From: a virus | Direction: 5' to 3' (one strand) | IMG/VR virus record: IMGVR_UViG_3300008517_000596 | Location: 1-23,177 of that record | Length of the DNA stretch: 23,177 nt | Shown: in pieces, positions 3,150-21,839 of the stretch | Layout of the letters: each line of letters starts with the position of its first letter | Numbering within the stretch: position 1 is the stretch's first letter | Program-made: the position numbers and the translations under genes | The notes under the pieces: model-generated | The model's database searches: none | What the model was told of the DNA's origin: nothing | Seen by the model: the letters and a program-made list of their open reading frames with translations, nothing else

Positions 3150-4391
3150 ATGCCAGAAACAAAAGCAGCAGTAATGGTTTATGAGGCTAGGGACGGACAA
3201 ACAATAGAACTGACCTTTGACACGATCAGGCGTTATCTTGTCCAGGGACATCCTGAATTTGTGGTTCCTTCAGAATTTATGTTTTTCATGGGTGTCTGCA
3301 AAAGTCAGGGAATGAATCCATTTAAGCGCGACTGTTATCTTCTCAAATATACAAAAGACGATGCAGCAGCTATAATCACAGCCATTGGATTTTTGCGAAG
3401 TCGGGGGAAAGCGCAACAGGATTGCAGGGGGTGGAATGCCGGTATTATTTTACAGAAAAAAGACGGGATGCTGGAATACCGGGAAGGAACTCTCATTCTT
3501 GACGAAGAAAAGCTCGTTGGTGGATGGTTTGAAGCAAAGCCTGATGGTTGGGATAAGCCTCTCAAATGGACTGTACCACTCAAAACATATTTGAAGTACA
3601 AGAAAAGTGGTGGTCTGACACGGTTTTGGAGCGAGGACAATCAGCCTGGCCAGATAGCGAAAGTCGCTGAAGTGCAAGGCTTGAGGAAATGTTGGCCTGA
3701 TCCCTTCCAAAATCTTTATGTTGATGCTGAAATCGCTCCGGATGATGGAACAAAAGGCTTGCCAGAAATTCCAGAAGAAACCGGCCAAGCAGGAGAAAGC
3801 GAGGCAATAGATCCCGATGCCCATGAGGACTTTGATAAGAAGGTTCCAAAGAATATCCAGGCAGAGCGAATGAAGGAGTTTTTAGACTTGGTTCAGCAGA
3901 GCGCGGAAAAGACTCTGTTTGAAATCAAGCAGGAGGCCTTTGACCATTGGGATGAATTCTGGGGCAGCTTCGTGAAATGGCAAGCTAAAAAGTATGGCGA
4001 GGACAAACCCGCCGAACCCACAGACAAAGACCCTATCCGCGAACAGTACATCAATCTAAGAGGTGCTGGCTTCTCCACATGGGTACATAACCACACAGGC
4101 CATATTATTGATTTAGATAGTAAGTATCAAAAAGAAATAGAGGCTAAGTGGCATAAGCTCTATCCCGAGGACACTTATCCCCTTGATAATAGAGAAAACG
4201 CAACACAGGACGAAATAGCTATTCCTGGGGGTGATTCTGAGCCTGATTCTGAGGAAGATGAGAGAACAATCCCTTGTAGTTTCCGGGATATCGAGGTCAA
4301 GGTCAGTTTTTGCAAGTCGGGGGCCTGTGCGCGAGTTGAGAATTGCGCTGATTACAAGCAATATCTTGAGGAACAGGCAAATCAAGAATAA
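3150..4391 (+). CDS. bet: Bet/RecT-type single-strand annealing protein with C-terminal extension
   Basis: Residues of about 20-195 match the Bet/RecT recombinase family: GVCKSQGMNPFKRDCYLLKY, a mid-region with AIGFLRSRGKAQ, WTVPLKTYLKYKK, and IAKVAEVQGLRKCWPD, which ends the conserved core. The family anneals complementary single strands during phage recombination, working with a 5'-3' exonuclease, here probably the 748-1335 product. The protein is 413 aa, well beyond the roughly 260-300 aa usual for Bet. The extra part has an acidic linker, a W/H-rich module (305-345) and a four-Cys tail (C376, C388, C393, C399) that may bind zinc. The ribosome site is AAAAGGAGAC. Confidence 0.88.
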   Translation: MPETKAAVMVYEARDGQTIELTFDTIRRYLVQGHPEFVVPSEFMFFMGVCKSQGMNPFKRDCYLLKYTKDDAAAIITAIGFLRSRGKAQQDCRGWNAGIILQKKDGMLEYREGTLILDEEKLVGGWFEAKPDGWDKPLKWTVPLKTYLKYKKSGGLTRFWSEDNQPGQIAKVAEVQGLRKCWPDPFQNLYVDAEIAPDDGTKGLPEIPEETGQAGESEAIDPDAHEDFDKKVPKNIQAERMKEFLDLVQQSAEKTLFEIKQEAFDHWDEFWGSFVKWQAKKYGEDKPAEPTDKDPIREQYINLRGAGFSTWVHNHTGHIIDLDSKYQKEIEAKWHKLYPEDTYPLDNRENATQDEIAIPGGDSEPDSEEDERTIPCSFRDIEVKVSFCKSGACARVENCADYKQYLEEQANQE

Positions 4392-4823: not shown

Positions 4824-4861
4824 CAAATAACCATGTTTACAACCCCACAATTAAATGCTAT

Positions 4862-4881
4862 GCCTCCTGAAAAAAGGAGGC
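4862..4881 (+). promoter_or_regulatory. Hairpin enclosing the integrase ribosome binding site
   Basis: GCCTCCT (4862-4868) and AGGAGGC (4875-4881) are perfect complements separated by GAAAAA. The right arm is the Shine-Dalgarno of the integrase start at 4887. As RNA this forms a 7-bp, GC-rich stem that would block initiation until it is opened. There is no U-tract, so it is not a terminator. Confidence 0.6.
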
Positions 4882-4886
4882 TAACC

Positions 4887-5945
4887 ATGAAAGGCAATAT
4901 CTATCCAACAGAGACAGGGTATCGGGTCAAGTTTCAGGGTATTTACAAAAGATTCAAAAACACACAAGAAGCCGAACGGTTTCTTAATAGATTGAGGCAT
5001 GAAGAAGATGAAGGCACATTCGATAAAAGAGATTGGCTTGCGAGTAAGCCGCTGGGTTTCACTAATCTGGCGCAGCAATGGCTCACGGGTAAAAAGGAAA
5101 AAGTTAAGTGTTACTCTAATTTGCGAAATCACATTAGCCAAGCTATACTTTACTTTGGAAATACCAACATCAAGACCATTCAATTTTCCGAACTTGAAAA
5201 TTTTTACCTGTCGCTACCAGTACGATTAAGTGAAAAAACTAAGGCAAACATATTTACAACGCTACACGCTTTCTTTGTTTGGATTGTTAAACGTGAGAAA
5301 CGAGACAAACGACATATCGAAATGCCTGAGTTTCCAGTTATCCGCTTTGAGCTTCGGAGGCGCAAGACTATTAGTAGGGAACAGCAATTACTTATTCTGG
5401 ATTGGCTCAAGGTTCACGCTCCCTTCAAGGTATGGCTTGGAATCAAATGGCTAATGACTTATATCAGCATCAGGCCCGGGGAACTTATTGAGATTAAGGA
5501 AGGTGATATTAACCGAGAATTAGGAGTGATTTATGTTAAGGATAACAAAGGAAAACGAGTCAAATCAATTCCCTTACTCCAAGAAGATCAATCCTTTATA
5601 CAAAACAAGGCCTTGCCACATGTGTATTTCTTCCGACACCAGCAACGTAAAGGTGTCGCTCCATATAACAGATACCGATTCGGAAAGCGTTGTCTCTATA
5701 CCTGGTGGAGAAGGGCTTGTGGAAATCTGGAACTTCGCCATACAGATCTATACGGAGGAACCTGTCACAGTACAGTCCAGTGGCTCTATCAACAAGGATA
5801 TAGTCCAGAAGAAATAAGTAGAGCGAAAATGCACACCAGTGTAGCCACAACATACCACTACCTTGATATAGGCTTAGAAGAAGTAAGGCAGATTTATGGT
5901 GGGGGGAAAGTGGTGGAGATGAGGAGAGAGAGTGATACCATTTAA
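4887..5945 (+). CDS. int: Tyrosine recombinase (phage integrase), probably lacking a catalytic Arg
   Basis: Start ATG 4887 is chosen because AGGAGG (4875-4880) precedes it; the frame stays open back to an ATG at 4833, which would add 18 residues. The product has 352 aa: N-terminal arm/AP2-like region (GNIYPTETGYRVKFQG), SAM-like core-binding domain, then the catalytic domain. R196 (ISIRPGEL), a Lys in DNKGKRVKSIPL, H316 (MHTSVATT) and Tyr325 (YHYLDI) fit the family. At the second Arg position the sequence reads DLYGGTCHST, with C293 (TGT) where relatives that I recall have GGTRHS. The residue lies 23 positions before H316, exactly as Arg does in XerD. Activity may therefore be lost. It integrates through the nearby tRNA-derived site. 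Confidence 0.88.
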   Translation: MKGNIYPTETGYRVKFQGIYKRFKNTQEAERFLNRLRHEEDEGTFDKRDWLASKPLGFTNLAQQWLTGKKEKVKCYSNLRNHISQAILYFGNTNIKTIQFSELENFYLSLPVRLSEKTKANIFTTLHAFFVWIVKREKRDKRHIEMPEFPVIRFELRRRKTISREQQLLILDWLKVHAPFKVWLGIKWLMTYISIRPGELIEIKEGDINRELGVIYVKDNKGKRVKSIPLLQEDQSFIQNKALPHVYFFRHQQRKGVAPYNRYRFGKRCLYTWWRRACGNLELRHTDLYGGTCHSTVQWLYQQGYSPEEISRAKMHTSVATTYHYLDIGLEEVRQIYGGGKVVEMRRESDTI

Positions 5946-6429
5946 TCAACCAAACGATCATACTTGTCAACATGCTTGTCTTGCACTAATGACAGGCAAA
6001 ACAATTGATTATGTTATTAATTGGTTTGGCAATGACCATGCTCTTGATGGAACAGAATCAGTCATATTCCTTGCTCACCATAATATGTATTTAGCTAATT
6101 ATGGTATCCCTGCCCATAAAGGCGAATACATAACATTAGAACCAAGTGATGAAATAGACATAAAATGGTCTGTTGGTGGGCATCCAGCTTTATTAGTTGT
6201 TCAATCAGAAAGATTTGAAGAAAAATTGCATGCTGTGTTTTGGGACGGAGAAAAAGTTTTTGATCCAAGCCCTCTTGTAAAGACATGGAGGGAAATATCT
6301 TCTTATAAAATCATGGAATTCTGGCCTTTATTAATAGATGAAGAAATTGAAAAACAGTTTCCCTTAACTGGCACCACCCTGGCACCTTTTTCAAAGGAGG
6401 AAATAGGAAATGGAAGAGAAGGAAATTGA
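5932..6429 (+). CDS. C39-like cysteine peptidase-type protein
   Basis: GTG start at 5932 with an AGGAGAG site immediately upstream, overlapping the integrase 3' end by 14 bases. The 165-aa product opens with QPNDHTCQHACLALMTG: Q6 can be the oxyanion Gln and C12 the nucleophile, while H100 (LHAVFWDG) and D111 (VFDPSP) fit the His and Asp of the papain/C39-like fold. No signal peptide or transporter domain is present, so it probably acts in the cytoplasm, with unknown substrate. The last 20 or so codons are built over the paired TGGCACC elements of the attachment region (6369-6386), so the C-terminus may be constrained by DNA function. Phage C39-like proteins are common but poorly understood. 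Confidence 0.6.
   Translation: MIPFNQPNDHTCQHACLALMTGKTIDYVINWFGNDHALDGTESVIFLAHHNMYLANYGIPAHKGEYITLEPSDEIDIKWSVGGHPALLVVQSERFEEKLHAVFWDGEKVFDPSPLVKTWREISSYKIMEFWPLLIDEEIEKQFPLTGTTLAPFSKEEIGNGREGN
6369..6386. other. Putative integrase arm-type site pair (left arm)
   Basis: TGGCACC occurs at 6369-6375 and 6380-6386, 11 bp apart, about one helical turn. The second copy continues as TGGCACCTTTTTCAAAGG. It lies about 170 bp left of the tRNA-like core. Tyrosine integrases of the lambda type bind such direct repeats with their N-terminal domain. Its function is inferred from spacing and position only. Confidence 0.55.
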
Positions 6430-6571
6430 AGAAAAACAGAGAATTCTGAAGTTTTTACAACAAACCGATAGGAATATTGATAATGTTATAGGATATTTGG
6501 TTGAAATTGCCGAAGAGATACAAACTTTCAGGAATATACTATTAGAAAAGAATAGGCACGACGGGATTTGA
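6410..6571 (+). CDS. 53-aa helical protein inside the attachment region
   Basis: ATG 6410 follows a strong AAAGGAGG at 6393-6400. The product is charged and helical (EEKEIEEKQRILKFLQQ...VIGYLVEIAEEIQ), consistent with a small coiled coil. The final codons (RHDGI, then TGA at 6569-6571) come from the tRNA-derived core (GGCACGACGGGATTTGA), so the stop is supplied by the attachment site. The gene would change its C-terminus if integration replaced the right side. No family is recognised; its location suggests an excisionase-like or regulatory role, but nothing in the sequence demonstrates it. Confidence 0.5.
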   Translation: MEEKEIEEKQRILKFLQQTDRNIDNVIGYLVEIAEEIQTFRNILLEKNRHDGI

Positions 6572-6574
6572 ACC
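6554..6574 (-). other. Putative attP core: remnant of a tRNA 3' end
   Basis: The + strand reads GGCACGACGGGATTTGAACC at 6555-6574. Its complement GGTTCAAATCCCGTCGTGCC is the T-loop, 3' T-stem half and 3' acceptor strand of a bacterial tRNA, with the acceptor continuing as T. The 5' half of the T-stem and the rest of the tRNA are absent (no proper T-stem partner), so this is an attachment-site remnant rather than a tRNA gene. The tRNA identity cannot be set from this part. Confidence 0.65.
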
Positions 6575-6631
6575 TCGCGCGTCTATGTGAGATTCAATAC
6601 TGGTATGAGTTTCAAAAAGCCCAAATTGCAT

Positions 6632-6649
6632 TGGCACCTTTGTGGCACC
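6632..6649. other. Putative integrase arm-type site pair (right arm)
   Basis: TGGCACC at 6632-6638 and 6643-6649, again 11 bp apart; the second copy continues as TGGCACCTTTTTAAAGG, nearly the same as the extension of the left pair. It sits about 60 bp right of the tRNA-like core, between it and the ASCH gene, in noncoding DNA. The non-coding stretch 6572-6702 contains otherwise only a weak ACTTG/CAAGT inverted repeat. Confidence 0.55.
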
Positions 6650-6702: not shown

Positions 6703-7107
6703 ATGAAAGCAATTAGTTTATGGCAACCGTGGGCCAGCGCAATGGCTATGGGATTAAAAAAGAATGAAACGCGGCATTGGTCAACATCGTATCGAGGACC
6801 TTTGCTCATTCATGCAGCAAAAAAGAAAGTTAAAATACCATATGAACTATTAAAAACTTTAACACGCAATGGTTTAAATCCGTATGAAGTTGATTATGGT
6901 GTCTTGGTTTGCAAAGTTGATCTGATAGATTGTCAGCAGATAGGAGATGATAATCGTCCACCTCATGATTCACTGGAATATCAATTAGGTAATTACGATC
7001 ATGGTAGATGGATGTGGATTACAGATAATCTTCAAGTTTTTGATCCTATTGCTTTCCGTGGTAGCCAAGGGTTCTTTAATATACCTGATAACATAATACC
7101 TAATTAG
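6703..7107 (+). CDS. ASCH-domain protein
   Basis: A 134-aa protein with the ASCH signature: SLWQPWASAM at the N-terminus, G17-x-K19, NETRHW (E22, R24), and YRGPLLIHAAKK; the end has GRWMWITDNL and a F-R-G-SQGFF close. ASCH domains are PUA-like folds thought to bind RNA or modified nucleotides; related phage proteins are widespread but their substrates are mostly unproven. A good purine-rich AAAGGAG leader precedes ATG 6703. It is the first gene right of the attachment site, and its TAG stop begins the 19-bp repeat at 7105. This suggests a cassette carried by the phage rather than a core replication gene. Confidence 0.8.
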   Translation: MKAISLWQPWASAMAMGLKKNETRHWSTSYRGPLLIHAAKKKVKIPYELLKTLTRNGLNPYEVDYGVLVCKVDLIDCQQIGDDNRPPHDSLEYQLGNYDHGRWMWITDNLQVFDPIAFRGSQGFFNIPDNIIPN

Positions 7108-7123
7108 CACCTTATCGTTGCCA
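7105..7123 (+). repeat. 19-bp cassette-end repeat, copy 1
   Basis: TAGCACCTTATCGTTGCCA, beginning with the TAG stop of the ASCH gene. Copy 2 (7363-7381) is identical; copy 3 (7891-7909) differs at two positions. It is not a hairpin and has no T-tract, so a simple terminator is unlikely. Confidence 0.75.
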
Positions 7124-7140
7124 AGAAAGGAGGTGGAGGA

Positions 7141-7365
7141 ATGAAAGCATCTCACATGGCTACATTAGAAGAAAACATGACATTACGAAAACTTTTATGG
7201 TTAAATCATGGGCATGAAAACTTATATGGCGATGATGGAGAAATGCAATGTCCTATTTGTATGCTGGATTTCAAAAGAGATTCGGTAGCGAAAATTGAGA
7301 AAAGATTTGATGATATTGCATTTCAACACATGTTAGATTTTGCAAAGAAAGAAAGGAAACTTTAG
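7141..7365 (+). CDS. Small phage protein with CxxC and YGDDGEMQC motif
   Basis: A 74-aa protein with a strong AAAGGAGGTGGAGGA leader. The sequence has the familiar phage pattern LRKLLWLNHGHENLYGDDGEM then QCPICMLDFKRD; C37-x2-C40 (and perhaps H23/H25) may bind zinc. Related short phage proteins carry the same W-L-x-H-G, Y-G-D-D-G-E-M-Q-C and F-K-R-D pattern, so it is a real gene of unknown function. Its TAG stop begins the second copy of the 19-bp repeat. Confidence 0.75.
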   Translation: MKASHMATLEENMTLRKLLWLNHGHENLYGDDGEMQCPICMLDFKRDSVAKIEKRFDDIAFQHMLDFAKKERKL

Positions 7366-7381
7366 CACCTTATCGTTGCCA
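7363..7381 (+). repeat. 19-bp cassette-end repeat, copy 2
   Basis: Identical to copy 1 at 7105-7123, again beginning with a TAG stop codon (7363-7365). It is followed 20 bp later by the third paired heptamer element. Confidence 0.75.
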
Positions 7382-7401
7382 GTTCCAGGTTTCCGAGCGA
7401 T

Positions 7402-7419
7402 TGGCACTATGTTGGCACC
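7402..7419. other. Third paired heptamer element, distant from the core
   Basis: TGGCACT at 7402-7408 and TGGCACC at 7413-7419, with the same 11-bp spacing as the pairs flanking the core, but about 830 bp right of it. Two genes separate it from the right-arm pair. It may be a further arm-type site or a displaced copy. Confidence 0.5.
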
Positions 7420-7443
7420 AAAAAGCAAAGGAAGTTTGATGGA

Positions 7444-7893
7444 GTGATGGATACTTCAGAAAAATACATAAAAATGTGTGAGAAGGGTAAGGAGATACAG
7501 AAACACATTCCAGGAAAATGGGATATATATTGTATAGATTTTACAAAATCAGAATGGTTAAATGTGCGTCAAATTGAAATGACTTATTGGAATAGTGATT
7601 TTGATGGTAATGATATTTGGGAAATTCCATTTTTTGAATTAGACAGAACTTGGGATAAAAGAGACAAAGGAATAGAAAAAATCTGGCTCCCCCGTCAAGA
7701 CCAATTGCAGGAGATGGTCTTAGATACCTCTTGTGTAGAAAACCTGTTAAGTTGTTTTTACTGGTGGATGCACAAGGATATGGCTTTCACGTTGCTAGAA
7801 TTTGATTCTTTAGAGCAATGGTGGCTTGCCTTTGTTATGCACGAGAAATATGGCAAGATATGGGATGATAAAAGAAAGGATTGGTTAAGATAG
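7444..7893 (+). CDS. Phage protein with WLPRQDQLQEM motif
   Basis: A 149-aa product with GTG start at 7444 (ATG at 7447 is also possible), preceded by AAAGGAAG at 7427-7434. The N-terminal CEKGKEIQ and acidic/aromatic middle are followed by WLPRQDQLQEM (81-91) and C-terminal LEQWWLAFVMHEKYGKIWDD. This combination matches a widespread, uncharacterised phage family in which a WLPRxDQL motif precedes a C-terminal LWLAxVMxExxxKxW segment. No catalytic motif is visible. Its TAG stop begins the third copy of the 19-bp repeat. It is the last + strand gene before the convergent structural arm. Confidence 0.75.
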   Translation: MMDTSEKYIKMCEKGKEIQKHIPGKWDIYCIDFTKSEWLNVRQIEMTYWNSDFDGNDIWEIPFFELDRTWDKRDKGIEKIWLPRQDQLQEMVLDTSCVENLLSCFYWWMHKDMAFTLLEFDSLEQWWLAFVMHEKYGKIWDDKRKDWLR

Positions 7894-7909
7894 TACCTTA
7901 TCATTGCCA
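7891..7909 (+). repeat. 19-bp cassette-end repeat, copy 3 (two mismatches)
   Basis: TAGTACCTTATCATTGCCA, differing from copies 1 and 2 at two positions, and again beginning with a TAG stop (7891-7893). It lies 15 bp from the end of the convergent - strand gene. Confidence 0.65.
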
Positions 7910-7924
7910 ACCCCAAGCAACCAT

Positions 7925-8158
7925 TCACCCCGAATTGTTCTTAATCTCATCCGGTGGTTCAATGCTAGGCTTCACGCCCTGAGCTTTCATTATATCCCAA
8001 ATATGACTTTCAAGCCGGGTCCCTTGGCTCATAGATTGGCCCACAAACAGATCAAATTCTTTTCGGCTTACTTTATTTCTGAGTCGAACTTCAAATGAAC
8101 CTATCCAAGCCAGAAAGATTGTGGCGGGAACTGCTACTTTTTCTATTAAACCGTTCAT
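7925..8158 (-). CDS. Small protein with N-terminal membrane segment
   Basis: A 77-aa product starting one base after the preceding gene's TAA (TAAGATG). Residues of about 5-20 (IEKVAVPATIFLAWIGSF) form a single hydrophobic helix; the rest is soluble and charged (NKVSRKEFDLFVGQSMSQG). A single N-terminal anchor followed by a soluble domain suits a phage lysis or assembly accessory, but no motif proves it. It ends the structural arm, converging with the + strand genes. Confidence 0.6.
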   Translation of the reverse strand: MNGLIEKVAVPATIFLAWIGSFEVRLRNKVSRKEFDLFVGQSMSQGTRLESHIWDIMKAQGVKPSIEPPDEIKNNSG

Positions 8159-8827: not shown

Positions 8828-9027
8828 TGTGAAACTCCTAAAAGTAATAATTGGCCTGGCCTTTTGGTTATAACTGGTACTCCACCAACTGTAATTCCCG
8901 AATATATCCAAGTCGCTTGTTCTCGATCCTGAGCATCTATGGTTCCGTCTGGTTTCGGTGGTATCGTGTAAATATGGAAAATACCAGTTGCGCTTCTTCG
9001 CTTATCTACACTATCTAAATTCGCCAT
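8824..9027 (-). CDS. Small phage protein of the KRRSATG...PPKPDGTID type
   Basis: A 67-aa protein starting as TAATG from the upstream fibre gene stop. The N-terminal ANLDSVDKRRSATGIF, then PPKPDGTIDAQDREQATWIYSGI, is a pattern I recognise from small proteins next to phage tail genes. There is no clear independent ribosome site, so translation probably depends on coupling. The stop overlaps the next gene by ATGA. Function unknown, probably part of the virion or its assembly. Confidence 0.7.
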   Translation of the reverse strand: MANLDSVDKRRSATGIFHIYTIPPKPDGTIDAQDREQATWIYSGITVGGVPVITKRPGQLLLLGVSQ

Positions 9028-10247
9028 TAAGCGTGCTCGCCCTTAGTAAAAGTCGTCGCGTCATCGCTGACAGCGCAGGAGAAAAGAACCGTAGTCCCCG
9101 CATCATCATATACCTTTTGTACTCCACTATTCGTTTCGATTTTGTTCTTTATCATTCTATAAACAAGATCTAGAACTTGCCTTGGAGTCGGAGAAGAGTC
9201 AAGAGCACCAGCCGCCCTTTCACCAATTGCCGAATTCACATAAACCAGAATAGAGTCGATTTTATCATCAAGTGTGGTTTTAGTGTCTACAAGAATTGAT
9301 TGTTGTCTGTTATCCAAAGTTGTACCAGTGTCAGTTAAAATCTGAGAACAGAGACTTTCTAAGGCATCCAGTCCATAAGTAGCATTGCTTAGGGTTTTGG
9401 TATCAGCGAGAATTGAGCCAACTTCGTTGTCTACTGTAGTAATTGTTCCTGGAATCGTGGTTTTTGTATCTACTAAAATGCTTTGAATTTGGTTTTCTAA
9501 TGTTGTTCCAGTATCCACAAGGATAGTTGAAAGCAAGGTTTCCAAGGCATCTAAGCCGTATGTGGCATTGCTGAGCGTTATTGTGTCTGCCAAAATACTT
9601 TGTGATCTATTCTCTAAAGTGGTTATGGTGCCAGGAATAGTTGTCTTGGTATCAACGAGAATGCTCGTGGAATCTTCCAATATTTGGGAGCACAGACTCT
9701 CTAGAGCATTTAGACCATATGTTGCATTGCTGAGAGTAATGGTATCTGCTAGGATGCTAGTCGAATTGGCTAAAATCGTAGAAAGCGCTGCACTTAAATC
9801 AGAACTCGCCCCTCCAGGAATAGCAGCCAATATTTGAGAAACAATTGTTTCTAAAGCATCCAGCCCATAGGTTGCATTGCTGAGAGTCCTTGTATCGTTC
9901 AAAATACTGGTAGTGTCACCCCGAACATCAACAATACCCCCTGAATCAGCCAATATGGAATTAATTTTATTTCCTTCAGTTTTAATCGTAATAAACTGAG
10001 TGGCACAACTGGCAGCACTATCATGGAATCTTAGCTGAATAAGATCAGCATTGGTTTCTCCCTGTGATAAAGTAAGGACATACTGACCATTAGTTAGTTC
10101 TGAAACCGTATTGCTTATGGCAGCCGAGGCTCCACCATCTTTTCTTACTGCCCCAGCAGGAGAAATCCCTGTTTCTGGCGTGGCAAAATCGGTTTTGTCT
10201 ACCATGACGAAGCCGACTTTTTGACTTGCTACATTTTTTAGATACAT
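9027..10247 (-). CDS. Repeat-rich tail-fibre-like protein
   Basis: 406 aa. The N-terminal domain (about 1-90: VGFVMVDKTDFATPETG, VRKDGGASAAISN, NGQYVLTLSQGETNAD) is a beta-sandwich type common in phage structural proteins. The middle repeats TLSNATYGLDALE at residues about 121, 171, 224 and 285, interleaved with SILxDTxTTxxx helical units and two IPGTIT segments; this resembles an alpha-helical fibre shaft. The C-terminal part (VLDLVYRMIKNKIETN ... KVYDDAGTTVLFSC ... TFTKGEHA) is a small domain also seen at the end of other phage fibres. Probably a virion surface protein; the exact position is not known. Confidence 0.75.
   Translation of the reverse strand: MYLKNVASQKVGFVMVDKTDFATPETGISPAGAVRKDGGASAAISNTVSELTNGQYVLTLSQGETNADLIQLRFHDSAASCATQFITIKTEGNKINSILADSGGIVDVRGDTTSILNDTRTLSNATYGLDALETIVSQILAAIPGGASSDLSAALSTILANSTSILADTITLSNATYGLNALESLCSQILEDSTSILVDTKTTIPGTITTLENRSQSILADTITLSNATYGLDALETLLSTILVDTGTTLENQIQSILVDTKTTIPGTITTVDNEVGSILADTKTLSNATYGLDALESLCSQILTDTGTTLDNRQQSILVDTKTTLDDKIDSILVYVNSAIGERAAGALDSSPTPRQVLDLVYRMIKNKIETNSGVQKVYDDAGTTVLFSCAVSDDATTFTKGEHA
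9295..9900 (-). repeat. Internal tandem coding repeats in the fibre gene
   Basis: Four copies of the TLSNATYGL(D/N)ALE unit with spacings of 50, 53 and 61 residues, separated by SILxDT units. On the + strand this shows as recurrent CATATGTTGCATTGCT-like stretches. Copy number could vary by recombination. Confidence 0.7.
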
Positions 10248-19268: not shown

Positions 19269-20258
19269 TTACATTCCTATCGGAAAATACCAGCCATTGA
19301 CATAACAAAATACTTCATTAGTGGTAGCGGTACTCCATTTTACTTCAATGATTTGTGAACTATCTGTAATAACTTCACATTCATTATACGCAAATAATAT
19401 ATTTGCGTGTGAATATGCAGCATAATGGCCTGTAGTAGCAGTTGTCCCATTCGTTTGCCAAGAAAGAAGTGCTGTTGCATTTTTATAAGATGACATAAAT
19501 AAAACATTAACTTTGGTGGCAAATTTTGGAACAGAACTTGCCATGTCTATATCCGTCCATGTTGTACTTGGACTAACTTCACTAGCTTCGATTATTCCAT
19601 CAGCATAAAGCACATAATCACCATCATGTAAAAATTCATCCATAGTATTGGTTCCATCTGCAAGAAAAGCGAAAATGCACAAATCATCACCATTATACCA
19701 ACCTTTATATGTATCATCCCATGCTGGTTCAGTAGTTGAATGGATAATTTCAGTGGCCGTAATCGCAGTGCCGGATGTAATTGCCGAATAATCTAAATAG
19801 ACATAATATATTTCACCATCAGTAAGAGTAGAAACTGTTTCATCTAAATCTGAATCCCAATAACAATATTTATCTTTACAAACATATTTACCTGGTCCTA
19901 TTAAAAGAGATGTGGCATCACCCCAAACAAAAGTTGATCTTGATTTTGCATGTGTGTAAAGATATGTGTAAAGATTAGCGATTGATGCATCAGGATCAAT
20001 ATACCAATAGGTTTCACCTGTGATCTGGGCAATGAGATATCTGAGTTGCTGAATTTCAAGCTCTAAAGATGTAGCCCTCACAAGAGAACTACTTTCATAT
20101 GGATCTGATGTGGCTTGTGCCGCCCCATCATTGGCCGATTCATCATCAATATGGGTAGGATCTAAATTATCTAAGATATTATTGAACTCAGCATTAAGTT
20201 GAGCCGCAGTTAAAGTTTCATCTGTAACCCATGTTTTAATTCTGCTTATTAAACTCAT
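19269..20258 (-). CDS. Tail structural protein of the TWVTDETLTAAQLNAEFNNI type
   Basis: 329 aa. The N-terminus ISRIKTWVTDETLTAAQLNA then LDNLDPTHIDDES and LELEIQQLRYLIAQITG is a well-known phage tail/fibre N-terminal region, often involved in attachment to the tail. The rest is strand-rich (YVCKDKYCYWDSD, WYNGDDLCIFAFL, YAAYSHANILFAY) ending in a WYFPIGM strand. ATG 20258 follows GGAGA. It lies between the beta-propeller tail protein and the internal-virion genes. Receptor contact or tail attachment is inferred. Confidence 0.75.
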   Translation of the reverse strand: MSLISRIKTWVTDETLTAAQLNAEFNNILDNLDPTHIDDESANDGAAQATSDPYESSSLVRATSLELEIQQLRYLIAQITGETYWYIDPDASIANLYTYLYTHAKSRSTFVWGDATSLLIGPGKYVCKDKYCYWDSDLDETVSTLTDGEIYYVYLDYSAITSGTAITATEIIHSTTEPAWDDTYKGWYNGDDLCIFAFLADGTNTMDEFLHDGDYVLYADGIIEASEVSPSTTWTDIDMASSVPKFATKVNVLFMSSYKNATALLSWQTNGTTATTGHYAAYSHANILFAYNECEVITDSSQIIEVKWSTATTNEVFCYVNGWYFPIGM

Positions 20259-20270
20259 TTGATTTTTCTC

Positions 20271-21839
20271 CTATGAAAGTCTTGATCCTAATATTTCATG
20301 GTCATATAACACCTGAGAAATAAAAAAGTCCTGATCCACTGTAGAATTGTAGAACTCAGACTGTATTCTTTTGCCTATGTTCTTGATGTCAAAATCTTTA
20401 TCTATAAGTTCATTTCCACCTAATAAATCTCTGCCAAGAGTAAAAGGTAGAGTTCCACCTCTGCCTTTCAATGATACCGTTCTTTGTGTCTGCCCTACTC
20501 CATCTATCCAAGTATCTATTGTTAAATTGTAATCGCCTTTAGGTTGCATTATCACTCTTCCGGCACTATATTTCTTAGTCACCCTTGGATTGTCAAACGC
20601 GAGATTAGGGGTCTTAAATCCTCCATAATAGGCCTCATCATTGTCATTCCGGTTTGCCTGCTCAAGTCTCCACAAAAGTCCCGCATAGCCTCCTGTATAA
20701 ACCTGATAATTTCCCGTGCCTACCCTGACAAGCGTAGAACAGGAAGCTGAATAACCCGATGTAGATATCTGATTATCATGTATCATCCAGGCATCTTTAG
20801 GAGGCCTATCTATGAAATAGACGAGAGCGGTATCCACCGTTGTCTGTCCGGCCCTTACCACAAATATTTTAATAGCCCTCAAAGCAGGATCATAAACAGA
20901 ATGAAAATGGTCGATATAACTCAATCTGCAATACTGCTTTATCCAATTGTGCATAAAGGAATCTTTTGTAAGGGAAGCCAGTTTATAGTCTCCATATTGT
21001 TCTGCTGATGTTACAGAGTAAATCTCACCATCTTCCATCATGGCAACTATGTCATTGGGAGTTTTCACTATGAGTCTGAAATTGGCTGCACCACCTTCCC
21101 ACTGAGCATCATCATAGCCCCATTCTGCGGTATCGAGAGAAGAATCGTCTATGACATAAACCTTGCGCTTTCCAAAACATAAAAGCCTATCGCCATATTC
21201 CACAGCCCCTATTATTCCAAACCCATCCCCTGTTTCTATGTCTATGGTAGTCACATTGGTATTTGAAAAATCATCTCCATCCCCATTCACAGAAGCATAT
21301 ATTCTATGTGGATAATCAGTAATTCCGCCAGCCCATAGCCTTTCGGATATTCCCCTGCCATGCTTTGCTATCCATTGAGGGCCATCATCAGCCCAATCAG
21401 TAGGAACATCTGTCAGGGCAGAAGTATCGCCTGCACCTGTCCATAATTGAGGCGTGCTTTCTCCATCGACTATATAAAGCTCATTATCGAATGTCTCAAA
21501 ATCATAAAAATTGGTCGTAGACATTTCAGAGACCTGGATATCCGTATCATGCGCACGATAGACTTTCCCATCATCACCTGCTACAATCAGATAAGCCGTA
21601 CCGCTTCTCAATCTGAATTGATATGCACCCATTATCTGAGGAGTGTCTTCTATGGCAGCATCATAGGCGGCATCACCGATATGAGCAGTACCACCTCTCT
21701 TGCGCCTTCCGAATTCATTCAGATTGATATTCCTGGAGGGGTGGACCATGTCAGTCGGTTGGGCCATGTCAATATTCGGGTTACTGCTAAAACCACCCGC
21801 GCTGCAAGGAATCCTATAAGTTTCGCCTTTATAAAGCAT
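20271..21839 (-). CDS. Beta-propeller tail/nozzle or stabilisation-type protein
   Basis: 522 aa, strand-rich, with the start of the chain MLYKGETYRIPCSAGGFSSN then NINLNEFGRRKRGG, and repeated short strands (YQFRLRSGTAYLIVAGDDGK, FDNELYIVDGES, RISERLWAGG-like, YGDRLLCFGKRKVYVID). This pattern of many short hydrophobic strands with G-D turns is that of phage beta-propeller tail proteins such as podovirus nozzle or head-stabilising components. The ribosome site is weak (AAAGAAAA). It follows the tailspike gene and precedes other tail genes, which suits a tail-tube/nozzle part. Confidence 0.7.
   Translation of the reverse strand: MLYKGETYRIPCSAGGFSSNPNIDMAQPTDMVHPSRNINLNEFGRRKRGGTAHIGDAAYDAAIEDTPQIMGAYQFRLRSGTAYLIVAGDDGKVYRAHDTDIQVSEMSTTNFYDFETFDNELYIVDGESTPQLWTGAGDTSALTDVPTDWADDGPQWIAKHGRGISERLWAGGITDYPHRIYASVNGDGDDFSNTNVTTIDIETGDGFGIIGAVEYGDRLLCFGKRKVYVIDDSSLDTAEWGYDDAQWEGGAANFRLIVKTPNDIVAMMEDGEIYSVTSAEQYGDYKLASLTKDSFMHNWIKQYCRLSYIDHFHSVYDPALRAIKIFVVRAGQTTVDTALVYFIDRPPKDAWMIHDNQISTSGYSASCSTLVRVGTGNYQVYTGGYAGLLWRLEQANRNDNDEAYYGGFKTPNLAFDNPRVTKKYSAGRVIMQPKGDYNLTIDTWIDGVGQTQRTVSLKGRGGTLPFTLGRDLLGGNELIDKDFDIKNIGKRIQSEFYNSTVDQDFFISQVLYDHEILGSRLS

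Follow-up and report, generated by a model that had tools for sequence, protein, structure and literature searches.

It is in the mycobacteriophages Corndog, LRRHood, and Island3 where the repeats most like the one analysed here have been described. Gene 14 of Corndog has a 17-bp direct repeat on both sides, which is single in its relatives (PMC4351075), genes 43-46 of LRRHood lie between 29-bp flanking repeats, of which Cali has only one, at the very 3' end of a gene (PMC3029335), and genes 67 and 68 of Island3 have 60 bp in common at their 3' ends. The gain of genes at repeat boundaries is a process already known from mosaic phages such as these. Short asymmetric repeats of other kinds are also found in phage genomes: the 13-bp stoperators of cluster A mycobacteriophages are repressor-bound, genome-wide, and located in short intergenic gaps, predominantly in one orientation relative to transcription (PMC6550527), and the 13-bp Start-Associated Sequences (SAS) of cluster K mycobacteriophages are phased to a translation signal of unrelated genes, upstream of start codons with the SD-like AGGAG. 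Finally, integrons carry arrays of cassettes, each made of a gene and a short 3' sequence (attC, with the core GTTRRRY), beside a tyrosine recombinase and its site.

The DNA analysed here (the window, 23,177 nucleotides) is a fragment of the genome of an uncultured phage from IMG/VR, and carries three copies of the 19-bp repeat TAGCACCTTATCGTTGCCA, all on the + strand and within 800 bp (R1 to R3, Table 1). The left part of the window contains the early genes, which run rightward and include those of RecT and a tyrosine integrase, and the last gene of the leftward late operon (7925-8158) ends at 7925. The genes that end in the repeat fill the whole of the region from attP to the late operon, a common location of phage cargo. 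As in Corndog, LRRHood, and Island3, a short direct repeat is present at the boundaries of a small accessory gene or block, with its copies at or near gene 3' ends; in contrast to them, here there are three serial copies, placed exactly at TAG stop codons and close to an attP with a duplicated arm pair.

Table 1. Positions of the features discussed, numbered from the first base of the window.
Feature	Position	Strand	Remarks
RecT-family single-strand annealing protein gene	3150..4391	+
Tyrosine integrase gene	4833..5945	+	phrog_1; Pfam Phage_integrase just below cut-off
Arm-site pair TGGCACC-N4-TGGCACC, P side	6369..6386	+	11-bp spacing (6369/6380)
Probable attP core	6549..6577	-	tRNA 3'-end-like sequence GGTTCAAATCCCGTCGTGCCTA
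Arm-site pair TGGCACC-N4-TGGCACC, P' side	6632..6649	+	6632/6643
ASCH-domain gene, 134 aa	6703..7107	+	phrog_3193; Pfam ASCH just below cut-off
Repeat copy R1	7105..7123	+	Starts with the stop codon of the ASCH gene
Small phage protein gene, 74 aa	7141..7365	+	CxxC motif (YGDDGEMQCPIC); between R1 and R2
Repeat copy R2	7363..7381	+	0 mismatches vs R1; carries the stop codon of the 74-aa gene
Third arm-like pair TGGCACT-N4-TGGCACC	7402..7419	+	7402/7413; between R2 and the 149-aa gene
Accessory protein gene, 149 aa	7444..7893	+	Start GTG 7444 or ATG 7447
Probable intrinsic terminator of the leftward late operon	7876..7914	-	T-rich tail TTTCTTTTATC
Repeat copy R3	7891..7909	+	17/19; stop codon of the 149-aa gene; final element ahead of the convergent late operon

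The initial annotation had reported this repeat at the TAG stops of three adjacent genes, and we confirmed the three positions, the identity of the first two copies, the 17/19 match of the third, and the in-frame TAG of each of the three ORFs. The identity of R1 and R2 extends to 20 bp with one extra upstream T (base 7362 at R2), this being the longest exact repeat in the window, and in first-order Markov simulations of the window with the same dinucleotide make-up exact direct repeats within 1 kb never exceeded 14 bp. R3 differs at position 4 (C to T) and position 13 (G to A). No further copy was found at up to 3 mismatches on either strand of the window, nor in any of 100 shuffles, and the next-best match in the window has 6 mismatches, with nothing else at 5 or fewer. 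The three stop-phased copies are far beyond chance. A set of 122 sequences (966 kb), made of the window and the fetched loci of related genes, contained no other site where two nonhomologous gene ends share so long a sequence starting at the stop; the closest cases were simple repeats, RBS sequence, or a duplicated gene end. In the locus L008, two genes (at 6093 and 6830) have a near-identical 3' end, with 39/40 bases matching before the stop and the likeness running on for at least 49 bases from the stop, a duplicated end of the Island3 67/68 type.

Outside of the repeat, the copies match at only 8 to 18 of the 40 upstream bases and at 5 to 11 of the 30 downstream bases, that is, their flanks are unrelated, and therefore the copies are discrete elements and not a product of gene-end paralogy. 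The three genes are unrelated, as the initial annotation had noted. They are accessory genes of scattered distribution, their relatives occur in other phages, and the three were never found together in the fetched loci of these relatives. Relatives of the ASCH protein usually have a longer and variable C-terminal tail, and all those listed extend beyond the end of the window protein, mostly by 5 to 25 residues; the 74-aa protein, small and putatively zinc-binding, has relatives encoded at 65 IMG/VR loci; and the 149-aa protein has two IMG/VR relatives (35-36% identity). The segment from R1 to R2 consists exactly of an RBS, the 74-aa gene, and the repeat (a 258-bp unit), with the R2-to-R3 unit measuring 528 bp, so that the repeat bounds gene-plus-RBS units of the cargo region.

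We suggest that the repeat is the boundary scar of successive gains of cargo genes by recombination at a short boundary sequence, a reading whose chances we place at about even. It has one mark of a recombination-boundary repeat, in that it flanks genes as a direct repeat and the sequences around its copies are otherwise unrelated. According to this proposal, the 19-mer would be a junction sequence copied whenever cargo was gained in the stretch from attP to the late-operon end: segments made of RBS, gene, and junction would be joined at short homology by recombination, plausibly by means of the RecT-type annealing protein of the phage itself, so that every event would add one copy at the 3' end of the gained gene, and the TAG of the junction would become the stop of whichever gene is joined. 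That ASCH relatives run past the stop of the window protein is expected of a gene whose stop came from the junction it was joined to. Phage RecT/Red-beta recombinases work on short or diverged homology (PMC3945230), but the 19-20 bp of the repeat fall slightly under the 23-27 bp quoted as the minimal pairing length of Red-beta (PMC3945230), and the stop-codon phasing of all three copies is tighter than in the mycobacteriophage precedents; both points count against this reading. Because no relative was found with one copy and no inserted gene, we can only infer gain rather than loss, and the order of events, the ancestral copy, and the agent are likewise given here as the most plausible ones. 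If serial gain is the right explanation, this locus would be an unusually clean case of the short boundary sequences long proposed behind phage mosaicism, with three copies, two of them identical and all of them stop-phased, and the repeat could give the order of single cargo-gene gains if relatives turn up.

The original copy was probably R3, where the rightward cargo meets the leftward late operon, with R1 and R2 being later copies. R3 makes up the 5' arm and loop of a hairpin more stable than any of 300 shuffles, and since this hairpin lies at the end of the late operon, with none at R1 or R2, R3 is the best candidate for the original junction. The same hairpin, strong, terminator-like on the - strand, and ending in a T-rich tail, together with the placement of the copies at gene ends, raises the alternative that the repeat is an RNA-level element, either a terminator or a processing site. 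We regard this as unlikely, and somewhat less probable than the regulatory role discussed below, given that R1 and R2 fold no better than shuffles on either strand, the two R3 changes are not compensatory, no real Rfam match was obtained, and the second arm of the R3 hairpin belongs to the 149-aa gene and not to the repeat. Folding against shuffles also gave no RNA fold common to the three copies. A consensus scan did not detect the hairpin at 7876-7914, between the convergent operons, its interrupted stem and long loop being the probable reason.

Also at the RNA level, the frame is open from the first gene across two TAGs to the end of the third, and it could be argued that the TAG and its 3' context let ribosomes pass from gene to gene by amber readthrough or recoding. 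This is the least probable of all the explanations considered: 10 of the 29 successive same-strand gene pairs of the window share a frame, so an open frame is unremarkable, the three genes have starts of their own, preceded by RBS-like leaders, and TAG is an ordinary stop in other genes of the window. On the latter ground, pyrrolysine or a recoded TAG was also rejected.

The main rival to serial gain is a regulatory role, in which the repeat would be a stoperator-like protein-binding site at gene ends that silences the cargo in the prophage. Like stoperators, the copies are short, asymmetric, conserved at 17-19/19, placed in short intergenic gaps, and all in one orientation relative to transcription. 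We nevertheless consider this explanation unlikely, since stoperators are 13 bp long and genome-wide, whereas the 19-bp repeat has three copies confined to 800 bp of a 23-kb fragment of the phage genome, no repressor gene was identified within the window, and a regulatory role does not account for copies that begin precisely at stop codons. The SAS elements are likewise asymmetric and keep phase with a translation signal, but they lie immediately upstream of starts, and the present repeat is phased to the stop, with no copy before the ASCH gene and no same-strand gene after R3. Two further candidates were rejected by eye, namely a sigma-54 promoter in the repeat, whose spacing is 2 bp too long, and an inverted-repeat operator made of two imperfect heptamers, in which both R3 changes break pairs.

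Of 395 genomes of one bacterial phylum, 16 encode homologues of the integrase of the window (34-47% identity). At least 11 of their elements are linked to a tRNA or tmRNA gene and carry, between the integrase and the tRNA, two tandem heptamers spaced exactly 11 bp apart, with a heptamer sequence that differs per element. In one homologous element, the same heptamer pair is also found at attR. From these pairs beside homologous integrases and at one attR, it follows that the TGGCACC pairs of the window are very probably integrase arm sites. An attB-like 22-mer was absent from the 395 genomes. The integrase family in question (L038-L054), with its element-specific 11-bp-spaced heptamers, is a good set for deducing arm-site specificity.

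The third arm-like pair lies past two cargo genes, at about 830 bp from the attP core. It is probably a duplicate of the P' pair, and we suggest for this integrase family that an arm-site pair can duplicate into the cargo region. The combination of the pair and the leader AAAGG..GGAGTGAT is found again ahead of the 149-aa gene (7/2000 and 15/2000 in shuffle tests), with the likeness of the two leaders being owed partly to purine-rich RBS sequence. In terms of serial gain, the duplicated pair may mark the seam of two modules, each from a P' arm to a repeat.

The initial annotation had also proposed that the repeat could contact the integrase, given that its TAGCACC is one base from TGGCACC, and the third arm pair is near the repeat. 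The one-base likeness is true but weak, since heptamers within one mismatch of TGGCACC occur at chance frequency (50 in the window vs. 46 expected) and copy 3 has TAGTACC, two bases off. The arm sites of homologous elements are tandem heptamers 11 bp apart, and the 19-mer has no second heptamer at this distance and an off-consensus first one that is changed in copy 3; accordingly, integrase contact is highly improbable, only slightly less so than readthrough.

A more elaborate possibility is that the 19-mer is the recombination site of a dedicated gene-cassette system, served by the integrase or another recombinase and forming integron-like arrays beside attP. The order integrase, attP, and three times gene plus repeat formally resembles an integron array, with units of RBS, gene, and repeat, but the attC-like structure and the GTTRRRY core are both absent (the GTTGCCA of the repeat does not fit it by eye, and there is no common fold), no cassettes were found elsewhere, no 19-mer copy appeared in the other phages searched or in the homologous integrase elements, and the homologous integrases use 11-bp-spaced arm pairs that the repeat does not have. 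Such a system is very unlikely, a little above integrase contact in our estimation, and slightly less probable than the system in general is its specific version, in which a phage-borne cassette system works at the 19-mer and its inserted accessory genes take their stop from the site in an array beside attP. The initial proposal of cassettes ending in the repeat is probably right in a weaker and ordinary form, being compatible with the unrelated, scattered genes and with the RBS-plus-gene units placed between attP and the late operon, but there was no sign of a dedicated site-specific system.

The search across phage genomes that had been recommended to check the cassette proposal found no other phage with the repeat. 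An exact search of IMG/VR gave no related copy, and a degenerate one gave four contigs in which the opposite strand reads GNDKVL or GNDKAL, matches that we discard as coincidence, apparently antisense within unrelated coding sequence. None of 25 contigs that encode homologues of the ASCH protein or the integrase contained the 19-mer, and at the attR ends of four homologous elements we noticed no repeat phased to stop codons, the repeat search having been run on two of them. The 395 genomes gave five single 2-mismatch matches, none clustered, vs. nine for a reversed-pattern control. Neither the cargo region, searched as DNA against phages and plasmids, nor the adjoining end of the late operon, searched against phages, gave any match.

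A 57.7-kb phage contig (L037) carries a structural gene whose protein is 79% identical, and its record and related genomes contained no 19-mer, only two lone 3-mismatch matches. This contig, otherwise unrelated, is 73% identical in DNA to the window over just one stretch of about 1.8 kb (window 19989-21834), a mosaic exchange of the structural region, and thus offers no view of the repeat junction. The Desulfofustis phage OP947158, with no integrase annotated, is a distant structural relative. The product of the - strand gene at 9027-10247 contains internal repeats (ILADTxTLSNATYGLDALE) and is probably a structural protein of the fibre or coiled type.
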